From Myxococcus hansupus (GTDB lineage Bacteria; Myxococcota; Myxococcia; Myxococcales; Myxococcaceae): 64,000 nucleotides of DNA. Location: positions 3,740,501 to 3,804,500 of the forward strand of contig NZ_CP012109.1 in NCBI RefSeq assembly GCF_000280925.3, in the 5' to 3' direction. Positions 57,734 through 61,230 of this stretch are shown here, piece after piece. Both the position numbers and the translations under genes were made by a program. The notes beneath the pieces are model-generated. The model made no database searches, was not told the DNA's origin, and saw nothing but the letters and a program-made list of their open reading frames with translations. How positions within the stretch are numbered: position 1 is the first letter of the stretch; every line of letters starts with the position of its first letter.

Positions 57734-60700
57734 CTATGACTCCTCTGTGTCCGGCTCCTGCGTCGTCGCGTGCGAGACGTCGCCCAGGAAAGGGCTGTCT
57801 CGGTGGAGTCGAGGCAGGCCCGGCGGGAGCGCGGGCTGCGTGGCACCCGTCGCCGCGCGAGCACCCGTGGCCTGCCGTCCCGCGACGATGTCGCAGGTGA
57901 GGGCCTTGGACTCCTGGATGTCCACGTTGGGGTCCGCCAACAGGGCGGTGAGCTCGTTGGCGCCGTCTCCCCGGATGCGGCCCGTCACGCCCCAGTGGTA
58001 GGGGATGCCCACCTGGTGAACCCACGTCCCGTTGAGCTTCAGCGTGGGGATTCTCGGGGTGACGAGCACCCGGCACTCCAGGTCTCCGCGCGCCGTGCGG
58101 AGCGTGGCCCAGCCGCCATGCGTCAGGCCTCGCTCGTGGGCGAGTTCAGGAGAGACCTCGCAGAACTGCTCGGGTTGCAGCTCACTGAGCCACGACAGCC
58201 AACGGCTCATGCCGCCCGCCGTGTGGTGCTCGGTGAGACGGTAGGTGGTGAGCACGAACGGATAACGCGGGTCGCTCCAGGCGCGGTGGTACGGGTTGCC
58301 GCGCCGGCGCCACTCCTTCCGGGCCGGGTTGCACTGCTGCCCGTAGAGCGCGTTTTGCACCGGGGACTCCACGGGCTCGTAATGCGTGGGCAGGGGGCCA
58401 TCCACCAGTCCGCTGGGTGCGAAGAGCCAGGCCCGGCCGTCCGCCAGCATCAGGAACGGGTCCGTCCCTGAATGCGCCTCCATGCCCCGGGCATCCGGCG
58501 TGGGCCGGTAGTCCGGCGGCCGGTCCACGATGAAGTCCGGCACGTCCTCGCCGGTCCACCGCGCCTTCGCCGCGTCCCACCAGACGTACTTCTTGCGCTC
58601 ACTCCACGGGCGGCCCGACGGGTCAGCCGAGGCGCGGTTGTAGAGGATGCGGCGGTTGGCCGGCCACGCCCAGCCCCACTCGGGGGCAACCCAGGTCTGC
58701 TCGCGCCCCGGCTTGCGGCGCGCGGTTTGATTGACGCCGTTGGCCCGGCATCCCGCGTAGATCCAACAGCCACACGCGGTGGATCCGTCGTCCTTCAGTT
58801 CCGTGAAGGCACTCACGGGCGCGTTGTCCGCGACGCGGTAGCCGTTGATTTCGTGGAGCACGGCCTCCGCGTCGGGATCCGCGTCGCGGCCCACGGTGGG
58901 GTAGTCCCACGTGAGGTCCTGGAGGGGCCGGTCCTTGGCCTCGCGCGAAGTGGCGTAGCGGGCCTTCAGCCGCAGGCCGAGGTGGTACATGAAATGGAGC
59001 TCGCTGCGCGCGTCACCCGGCGGCTCCACCGCCTTGTGGTGCCACTGGAGCATCCGCTGGGTGTTGGTGAACGAGCCGTCCTTCTCCGTGTGCGCGGCGG
59101 CGGGGAAGAAGAAGACCTCCGTGCGGATGTCCTCCGTCTTCACGTCGCCGCGTTGGATTTCCGGGGCGGTGCGCCAGAACTCGGCGGTCTCGATGAGCGT
59201 GAGGTCGCGGACCACCAACCAGTCGAGCTGCCGCAGTCCCTGGCGTTGAAGCGCGCCGTTCATGGAGCCCACGGCGGGGTTCTCGCCCATGACGAAGTAG
59301 CCCTGGAGCCGGCCGTCCGCCATGTCCGCCACGGTCTGCATGTGCGAATGGTTTCCGGTGAGCCGGGGCAGGTGGCTGAAGAGGTAGTGGTTCTCCGCCG
59401 TGGCCGCGTCGCCGAACCACGCCTTGAGCAGGGAGACGATGTACTTCGGGAAGTGGTGCCACCAACCGGTCTTGGATTGGTGGTCCTCGATGTACTCGTC
59501 GAGCACGCTCGAGTGCTCGCAGTACGGCATGGGGATGTAGCCGGGCAGCAGGTTGTAGAGGGTGGGGATGTCCGTGGAGCCCTGGATGGAAGCATGGCCT
59601 CGCAGCGCGAGGATGCCGCCCCCGGGACGCCCGATGTTGCCCAGCAGCAGTTGGAGGATGGTCGCGGTGCGGATGTACTGCACGCCCACCGAGTGCTGCG
59701 TCCAGCCCACCGCGTAGCAGAAGGCGCTGGTGCGCTCCCGGCCCGAGTTGGCGCAGAGCGCCTCCGCCACTTTCAGGAACTGCGCCTCGGACACGCCACA
59801 CACCTTGGAGACGATGGCTGGCGTGTAGCGCTGGAAGTGGCGCCGCAGCACCTGGAAGACACATCGGGGATGCTGGAGCGTGAGGTCCTTGGGGGCCTCG
59901 AAGGGGGGCAGGTGGCCGGTTTCCCCGCGCGCACCGGCGCCGGGCTCCGCGAAGACCTCTTTGTGTCCCGCCGCGGGAATCGCGCCCTCGACGCCTTCGT
60001 ACTGCCAGGTGGCGGAGTCGTATTGGTTCTGCTCGCGCTCGTAGCCGCTGAAGAGGCCGTCCAGGTCCTCCGTGTCCTGGTAGTCCTCGCGCAGGATGTT
60101 CGCGGCGTTGGTGTAGTGGACGACGTACTCGCGGAAGTACCGCTCGTTCTCCAGCACGTAGCGGATGAGGCCGCCGAGGAACGCGATGTCCGAACCCACG
60201 CGCAGCGGCACGTGGAGATCCGCCATCGCGCTGGTGCGCGTGAACCGAGGGTCCACATGGATGATGGTGGCACCCCGTTCCTTCGCTTCCATGACCCACT
60301 GGAAGCCCACGGGATGGCACTCGGCCATGTTGGACCCTTGGATGACGATGCAGTCAGCGTTCGCCAGGTCCTGCTGGAAGGTCGTGGCTCCGCCACGTCC
60401 AAGCGTGATGCCCAGACCGGGCACCGTGGAGGAATGTCATATTCGGGCCTGGTTCTCGATCTGGACGATGCCCAGCGCGGTGAAGAGCTTCTTGATGAGG
60501 TAGTTCTCCTCGTTGTCCAGCGTGGCGCCGCCCAGGTGGGCGATGCCCAGCGTGCGCCGGACGTCGTGGCCGTGGGCGTCCGTGGCCTCCCACGTGGCGT
60601 CGCGGGTGCGCTTCACGCGGTCGGCCACCATGTCCATGGCCTGCTCCAACGGGATGCGTTCCCACTCCCGTCCGCCGGGCCGACGGTAGAGCACGTCCTT

Positions 60701-61006
60701 CACCCGGTGCGTCCCGGTGACGAGCTGGAAGGTGGCGGAGCCCTTGGGGCACAGCCGTCCCCGTGACACGGGCGAGTCCGCGTCGCCTTCGATGTCGAGG
60801 ATGCGGCCGTCCTGGACATGGACGTCCTGCCCGCAGCCCACCGCGCAGTAGGGGCAGACGGACTTCACGACGCGGTCCGCGCGGGCGGTGCGGGGTTCCA
60901 GCGAGCGGCTGCGCTCCGACATCGCCGTCTCGCCCAGCGCGGTGGCGTCTCCCGTCTTCACCTGCCGCAGCAGGGGCCAGCGGGCCAGCAGATCGAAGAG
61001 TCCCAT
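57734..61006 (-). CDS. fdnG: Formate dehydrogenase catalytic subunit, predicted selenoprotein (in-frame TGA at 60437-60439)
   Basis: 1090-residue molybdopterin (or tungstopterin) formate dehydrogenase, oxidising formate to CO2. A naive reading stops at TGA 60437-60439, but the two halves are in the same frame and join as IENQARI-U-HSSTVPGLG, matching E. coli FdnG at its selenocysteine followed by the catalytic His. Sec would be residue 190. Starting 11 nt after the TGA is a hairpin GGUGCCC-GGUCU-GGGCAUC, a bacterial SECIS element. The N-terminus MGLFDLLARWPLLRQ has no Tat signal, unlike E. coli FdnG, so the enzyme should sit on the cytosolic side. The iron-sulfur motif is CPYCAVGCGQ with a later CPKG. 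ATG 61006 follows a GGAAGGTGG ribosome site. Confidence 0.93.
60407..60439 (-). promoter_or_regulatory. Sec UGA codon and SECIS-like hairpin in fdnG
   Basis: On the coding strand: UGA (60439-60437), an 11-nt spacer, then a 7-bp stem GGUGCCC/GGGCAUC (one G-U pair) closed by GGUCU. From memory, the E. coli fdhF SECIS has the same 11-nt spacing and the same GGUCU in its apical loop, the part bound by SelB. This is the signal that recodes UGA as selenocysteine. Confidence 0.9.
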
Positions 61007-61102
61007 CAGCCACCTTCCGCGTGATGAACGGTCGCGGGTGATGATGGTGCCGCACGGGTTTGGATGCAGGGTGCGGGACGTGGCTCGCTGTTGCACCAGC
61101 GA

Positions 61103-61152
61103 CGCTCGCGGAGCTGGGATGTTCGCCGGCGTGCGTGCATGTGCCTTCGAAT
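61103..61152 (+). repeat. Upstream arm of an imperfect direct repeat flanking the toxin pair
   Basis: Sequence around CGCTCGCGG...ATGTTCGCCGGCGTGCG...GTGCCTTCGA. A similar stretch with one 6-bp gap and several substitutions is found after the immunity gene (62621-62662), suggesting that the AHH/imm11 pair lies between repeats. Confidence 0.55.
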
Positions 61153-61230
61153 CCACCGCGCGTGGGGCGTGCTCAGTATCCCCCCCAGGGAGTATTCAGC
61201 TCTGAGCCGCTAGCGTGTGTGCTTCCGGGC

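Follow-up and report, generated by a model that had tools for sequence, protein, structure and literature searches.

Within the window, meaning the whole 64,000 nt stretch of Myxococcus hansupus DNA that was analysed, the minus strand carries a gene that very probably encodes the alpha subunit of a selenocysteine (Sec)-containing, molybdenum- or tungsten-dependent formate dehydrogenase, in which a UGA would be read by means of a hairpin with the loop GGUCU, and which has an Fe-S and an NrfD-like subunit as partners. On the sequence comparisons set out below, the UGA is almost certainly read as Sec in this bacterium. The gene is of a well-known kind and belongs to the selenoprotein family that is most widespread in bacteria. 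The features of the locus are listed in Table 1.

Table 1. Features of the predicted selenoprotein locus, in positions of the window
Feature	Position	Strand	Basis or detail
fdh alpha subunit (formate dehydrogenase), predicted Sec at residue 190	57734..61006	-	TGA read through, 1090 aa
TGA predicted to be read as selenocysteine	60437..60439	-	Aligned with modified residue X of 1kqf_A and 1h0h_A
Spacer from TGA to hairpin, 11 nt	60426..60436	-	Sequence
Bacterial SECIS hairpin, 7 bp stem, loop GGUCU	60407..60425	-	Sequence, conservation, covariation
Three codons before the TGA (GCC CGA ATA here)	60440..60448	-	Comparison with 30 family relatives
Fe-S (beta) subunit, 265 aa	56933..57730	-	Fer4_11 over cut-off
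NrfD-like membrane (gamma) subunit, 379 aa	55797..56936	-	NrfD_2 and NrfD Pfam matches

In translation, the alpha subunit gene is one frame with a single interruption, the TGA, which is preceded by 189 residues and followed by 900 with no other stop. The predicted start, an ATG at 61006, is our choice, and the match to the NCBIfam model NF041513 (see below) starts at residue 7. The minus strand reads AAC CAG GCC CGA ATA TGA CAT at this point, which bears out the NQAR-x-Sec-His context and the run of about 900 intact codons after the TGA that were reported in the initial annotation of this DNA. It had also predicted that simple gene callers would split the gene, and the mechanical ORF list does break it in two, giving 239 aa (61156..60437) and 896 aa (60424..57734). 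The correct reading of the gene is now given.

The TGA was aligned to the modified residue (X) in two solved formate dehydrogenases, 1kqf (E. coli formate dehydrogenase-N) and 1h0h, and both alignments are free of gaps around this position. We take the modified residue of both structures to be Sec. As expected of FdhA, the UGA is in frame at the position of the catalytic Sec, and His comes next. The FdhA motif given in Table 1 of PMC13188914 is UHxP, and the P of this short form is not in place in the U-H-S-S-T-V-P found here.

The read-through protein matched NF041513 (formate_DH_Act) with 1875.8 bits, over a cut-off of 1400, across model positions 3-1058 of 1067. The cut-off for TIGR01553 (formate dehydrogenase-N alpha) was also passed, with 985.9 bits, and the score for TIGR01591 (Fdh-alpha) was below cut-off (351.1 vs 666.25 bits). 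The Pfam families PF04879, PF00384 and PF01568 were all above cut-off, and the protein has the full length of a molybdopterin oxidoreductase, with a 4Fe-4S domain at the N-terminus and a dinucleotide-binding domain at the C-terminus, again as expected of FdhA. The alpha gene comes first in a row of three on one strand, with the Fe-S and then the NrfD-like gene behind it. The best NCBIfam match for the Fe-S subunit was FDH-beta (TIGR01582), below its cut-off (186.8 vs 334.7 bits), and for the third gene no Pfam family besides NrfD_2 and NrfD was found at E 0.001.

According to the initial annotation, a 7 bp stem with a GGUCU loop begins 11 nt after the TGA, and exactly this arrangement is present at 60425..60407. 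The stem-loop, GGUGCCC/GGUCU/GGGCAUC, has seven pairs, one of them G-U, and 18 nt lie between the UGA and the loop. It agrees with the published bacterial SECIS model as worded in section 5 of PMC13188914. In the form common to 38 of 106 relatives with a stop codon at this site (the named ones, described below, being the best 80 of 582), the energy of the 19 nt hairpin is -10.8 kcal/mol. The folding check that had been proposed gave no energy better than that of shuffled sequences (z of -0.49, -1.41 and -1.02 for three stretches). With z between -0.5 and -1.4, hairpin energy was rejected as proof, and it is therefore comparison, not folding energy, that decides that the hairpin is more than chance.

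Models of such elements were also applied. Rfam SECIS_3 (RF01989) matched with the TGA in register, at E 1.8e-4 in a search of 261 bases, but the score of 28 bits is less than the gathering score of 63 and membership was rejected. An Rfam scan of the whole window at gathering thresholds listed nothing. A covariance model of the hairpin (R1) was used to search the genome, with 150 of 12367 first-look candidates scored. It returned the element of the formate dehydrogenase gene at E 9.1e-9 and, among the candidates scored, no further element below E 1.9, not even that of the SelW-like gene described below.

Of 96 genomes of the family Myxococcaceae that were searched, 41 contained a match to the enzyme at E <= 1e-100. 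The match was at least 68 % identical in 39 of the 96, each time with an internal TGA; G046 and G082 had only matches that were 41-42 % identical and lacked the TGA. Among the 39, the G081 gene includes a further TAG, the G080 gene is partial and the G052 gene is in two pieces. The source genome has a single match at E <= 1e-100, the TGA form, and no close intact Cys copy was found in it. Relatives with Cys, along with a stop-free gene in this strain on resequencing, would have counted against the initial annotation, and all 39 family matches of at least 68 % identity carry the TGA, which speaks strongly against a sequencing error or a recent pseudogene.

For codon comparison, loci L021-L050 were used, which are the best 30 of 44 listed rows. 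All 30 of these relatives have the same DNA sequence at codons +4 to +10 counted from the TGA, and the hairpin is the only codon-identical run of seven, the next longest being three. Over the gene as a whole, 103 of the 497 columns with an invariant degenerate amino acid are codon-invariant. The loop codon is GGT in all 30, and GGT makes up 188 of 2677 Gly codons in this set, those 30 included. Third-position entropy over seven codons had a median of 0.666 and was lowest at the hairpin (0.00); a second quiet stretch, at -27 (0.03), consists of residues that mostly have two codons.

A scan of genome contigs yielded the named loci, of which the best 80 of 582 were used. These are mostly from Actinomycetota, with Acidobacteriota MAGs and Myxococcota, and are 61-95 % identical. 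One of them, L081, is from a record titled Comamonas sp. KCTC 72670; its formate dehydrogenase is 95 % identical and the name looks wrong for a Myxococcus-like sequence. Together with the 30 family loci, 110 loci were read, and the codon at the Sec site is TGA in 100, TAG in six and TGC in four (named loci, best 80 of 582). The 106 stop-codon forms are not independent, as the two sets share eight distinct 90-base rows and the 106 comprise 88 distinct ones. In these 106, the loop is GGTCT (78), AGTCT (16) or AGTTT (12), stem pairs 2 to 7 are standard in every one and the outermost pair (pair 1) forms in 65. Pair 4, which joins the third positions of Val and Gly (or equivalent) codons, both synonymous, is GC in 39, CG in 31, UA in 28, UG in seven and GU in one.

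For the covariation count, we aligned the 69 of the 106 that differ from one another over 48 bases, which left 64 distinct rows. Paired cells made up 94.2 % compared with 86.6 % (sd 0.8) in shuffles, and there were 32 two-sided changes compared with 9.5 (sd 2.5). Neither value was reached in any of 500 shuffles, and the covariation score also exceeded all 500. Neither the count of pairs that change on both sides (one) nor that of pair types exceeded all 500 shuffles of the 64 rows; three of the seven pairs never vary and the formal covariation rests on one pair. When the structure was slid by 1-3 columns as a control, 33-59 % of cells paired; the -3 slide kept 18 two-sided cells and the +3 slide had two pairs with two-sided changes.

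In the Cys forms, which are L125, L127, L148 and L151 (all with TGC and all from Actinomycetota), 3-5 of the seven pairs remain and the loop is GGGCU or GGCCU. In all four, the Pro of TVPGLG is replaced by Ala or Thr, so that one stem pair is lost along with a residue change, and the loop letters are lost synonymously. These genes are possibly Sec-to-Cys conversions. The TAG forms (L118, L142, L154, L155, L159 and L160) are from Geodermatophilus, Blastococcus and Modestobacter and have the same hairpin; UAG-coded Sec in the formate dehydrogenase of Geodermatophilaceae, with a tRNA-Sec that has a CUA anticodon, is described in PMC5330540. The 106 stop-codon and four Cys forms, from several phyla, serve as a neat natural experiment on the requirements of a bacterial SECIS.

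A search for the selenocysteine machinery had been suggested in the initial annotation. In the genome, a single contig of 9,490,432 bases, only matches over curated cut-offs were counted, and selA (548.5 bits), selB (279.8 bits, or 304.8 when a C-terminal part in that frame is added), selD (386.8 bits, no internal stop) and tRNA-Sec (66.7 bits, anticodon UCA according to ARAGORN) were all present, as was fdhD (210.2 bits). All five are far from the window and from one another. The genome thus has the four genes that define the Sec-decoding trait (selA, selB, selD and tRNA-Sec), in four separate places. Among 14 control genomes, the cut-offs were passed for tRNA-Sec in five, selA in one, selB in two, selD in two and fdhD in eight. 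Every one of the 14 control genomes also has weaker matches (E 0.001) to the tRNA-Sec, selB and selD models, which were left out of the count.

Other explanations for the interrupted frame can be weighed against these data. If the TGA were a real stop or a miscalled base, the gene would be dead or split, as the 239 and 896 aa entries in the ORF list would have it, and translation might in principle resume at a GTG 12 nt past the TGA. However, the same TGA is found in every one of the 39 family genomes whose match reaches 68 % identity, as well as in 100 of the 110 relatives, with TAG in six more (named loci, best 80 of 582), the frame is otherwise intact and the hairpin is codon-invariant, all of which make a pseudogene or sequencing error extremely unlikely. 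That the UGA is instead filled with a standard amino acid (Trp, Cys or Arg) through plain read-through or suppression is also very unlikely, given that the genome has the Sec machinery, that solved relatives have a modified residue at the same place and that the SECIS has the classical spacing, with no such hairpin in the four Cys forms.

The DNA after the TGA might also be conserved only for the protein it encodes (TVPGLG) and not as RNA. In favour of this, the residues are conserved, three of the stem pairs are invariant and one residue of the stretch is different in the Cys forms. A protein-only explanation is nevertheless scarcely credible in view of the synonymous third positions, which are frozen within the family (GGT in 30/30 of the best 30 of 44), and of the compensating changes between groups that leave pair 4 standard in 106/106 (named loci, best 80 of 582). 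The observation in the initial annotation is correct, and its selenoprotein reading is well supported by the clean frame, the conserved and co-varying hairpin, the Cys forms that lack it and the machinery.

By analogy with the known family, SelB carrying GTP and Sec-tRNA(UCA) would bind the GGUCU hairpin 11 nt downstream of the UGA, and Sec would be delivered there, where release factor 2 would otherwise end translation. The selenium would then bind the active-site metal, molybdenum or tungsten. Formate, the presumed substrate in this family, would be oxidised to CO2, and electrons would probably pass from the Fe-S subunit to the NrfD-like subunit and on to the quinone pool. The three genes probably form one operon. 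Both partner genes were matched in 61 of the named loci (best 80 of 582; tblastn at E 1e-10, anywhere in the locus). One of the 80 has a match to the first partner only, and its contig ends there, and in 18 neither partner was matched, some of these being at contig ends and others having full flanks. L101, L103, L105, L108 and other Actinomadura loci have the alpha subunit with no Fe-S or NrfD-like match despite full flanks.

Across the 96 family genomes, selA was over cut-off in 88, tRNA-Sec was found in 87 and both were found in 86. Both are present in all 39 genomes with the Sec enzyme vs 47 of the 57 others (Fisher p 0.005, kinship ignored). As these 47 have selA and tRNA-Sec and no enzyme, a strict link between enzyme and machinery across the family was rejected. 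G036 (two contigs) lacks tRNA-Sec, selA over cut-off, the Sec formate dehydrogenase and the SelW-like gene; it has a short selA-like remnant below cut-off, and there is an apparent loss of the Sec trait in this genome.

A SelW-like (Rdx, PF10262) gene with a CxxU motif, the U being an in-frame TGA, is located at C1:58939-59145 (locus L176:1489-1725). The motif is C-T-A-Sec and a similar sequence follows the TGA in 30 further loci. Judged from its sequence, this candidate is likely to be a second selenoprotein of the genome. Peroxiredoxins were also considered, and none of 18 AhpC-TSA matches in the genome has a stop inside the match. A SelW-like match with one TGA is present in 74 of the 96 family genomes, and a second match in G046 is without the TGA. 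The enzyme or the SelW-like gene was found in 81 of the 96, and 78 of these have both selA and tRNA-Sec. G009, G049 and G083, each of at least 680 contigs, have the SelW-like gene and lack selA, tRNA-Sec or both. The remaining 15 have neither gene, and eight of these have selA and tRNA-Sec (Fisher p 5e-5, kinship ignored). In those eight (G014, G015, G024, G037, G038, G039, G044 and G050), a different selenoprotein is expected. Most of the enzyme-free genomes with machinery are explained by a SelW-like gene with TGA, and the candidate helps explain why the machinery is commoner than formate dehydrogenase in the family. Taken with the distribution of the Sec trait, the SelW-like gene indicates that the enzyme alone is not what keeps the trait in the family.

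The codons that precede the recoded stop are unusual for this gene. In the best 30 of 44 family relatives, the three codons before the TGA are GCT in 24, CGA in 27 and ATA in 29 (ATT in one). Elsewhere in the gene in the same relatives, ATA is 7 of 1047 Ile codons, CGA accounts for 4.3 % and GCT for 1.1 %, and at any other Ile, Arg or Ala column ATA, CGA and GCT are found in at most 1, 8 and 5 of about 30, respectively. Among the 76 named stop-codon forms (from the best 80 of 582), the codon before the stop is ATT in 37, ATA in 20, GTT in 15 and ATC in four, and the codon before Cys in the four Cys forms ends in C or G (GTC in two, GTG in two). Overall, the base before the UGA or UAG is A or U in 102 of the 106 stop-codon forms and in 84 of the 88 distinct rows (named loci, best 80 of 582). 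Other Ile and Val codons end in A or U in only 2.7 % of cases in Myxococcaceae (84/3115) and in 6.8 % in the named relatives (537/7955; best 80 of 582).

We take this preference as real, and it would reflect selection on the mRNA in this enzyme family. The codon counts slightly favour the view that, in this formate dehydrogenase branch, the signal for recoding extends to sequence before the stop codon. In the SelW-like genes, A or U precedes the stop in 7 of 31, so A/U before a recoded stop is not a general rule. ATT and GTT are read by the same tRNAs as ATC and GTC, and as they are often used here, the mRNA base itself (through termination context or an open UGA) is more likely to be the cause than slow tRNAs.

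Predicted folds were compared with this preference. The Myxococcaceae consensus fold has an outer helix of four pairs that uses the UCGA before the stop, and all four pairs can form in 26 of 30 Myxococcaceae (best 30 of 44) and in 14 of the 76 named forms (best 80 of 582). This helix could explain the CGA in Myxococcaceae. The -1 base is outside it, and the helix is therefore no explanation for A/U. When the -1 base was read as C, the hairpin became less probable in 30 Myxococcaceae (0.789 before, 0.740 after) and more probable in 72 named forms (0.706 before, 0.750 after); with opposite shifts in the two sets, the idea that A/U protects the hairpin was not consistently supported. The probability that the stop codon is unpaired fell from 0.58 to 0.41 (Myxococcaceae) and from 0.48 to 0.36 (named), an effect that C may have at many places. 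A literature search for an upstream context effect on Sec recoding, which is a weak test, found no paper. The passages in PMC4513850 and PMC8659212 that contain 'upstream' concern ribosomes piling up, not base context, and the word is absent from PMC10778597. The A/U preference is a specific and cheap hypothesis for a reporter test.

A literature search for selenocysteine or selenoprotein with Myxococcus or myxobacteria found no relevant title. Words beginning with Myxococc- are absent from the main text of PMC1794560, PMC5029168 and PMC13188914, and PMC1794560 lists Anaeromyxobacter. What this gene adds is the comparative set, along with the A/U preference upstream of the stop.

Compared with known systems, E. 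coli FdnG (1kqf) could be aligned almost end to end and the NQAR-x-Sec-His context is common to both, and to this extent the likeness to FdnG drawn in the initial annotation holds. It does not extend to the best-scoring family, as NF041513 outscores TIGR01553, or to the third gene. FdnI is a cytochrome b type gamma subunit. Here, in place of a cytochrome b of the FdnI type, there is an NrfD-like partner, the beta subunit falls below the TIGR01582 cut-off and no twin-arginine signal was seen by eye in the alpha subunit. Its NrfD partner, together with the absence of an obvious twin-arginine signal, distinguishes the enzyme from E. coli FdnGHI and suggests that the active site is cytoplasmic. 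The 11 nt spacer and GGUCU loop are as in E. coli fdhF, and in this hairpin an A is available to pair with the U that bulges out of the E. coli SECIS. The codon before the UGA is ATA here, whereas the Rfam SECIS_3 consensus has GUC.

The match to NF041513 is close to whole length, and nothing was found that sets the protein apart from this family. Most of the relatives (best 80 of 582, known by identity and not by NF041513 score) have the same TGA and hairpin. The UAG-coded Sec formate dehydrogenase of Geodermatophilaceae belongs to the same enzyme family and has the same hairpin, with TAG there and TGA here. Members of the Myxococcus group are soil bacteria with an aerobic predatory lifestyle. 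The myxobacterial relative Anaeromyxobacter dehalogenans, in contrast, is an anaerobe with 11 selenoproteins, including three Sec FdhA (PMC1794560, Table 3), whereas the formate dehydrogenase and the SelW-like candidate are those found here among the families searched.
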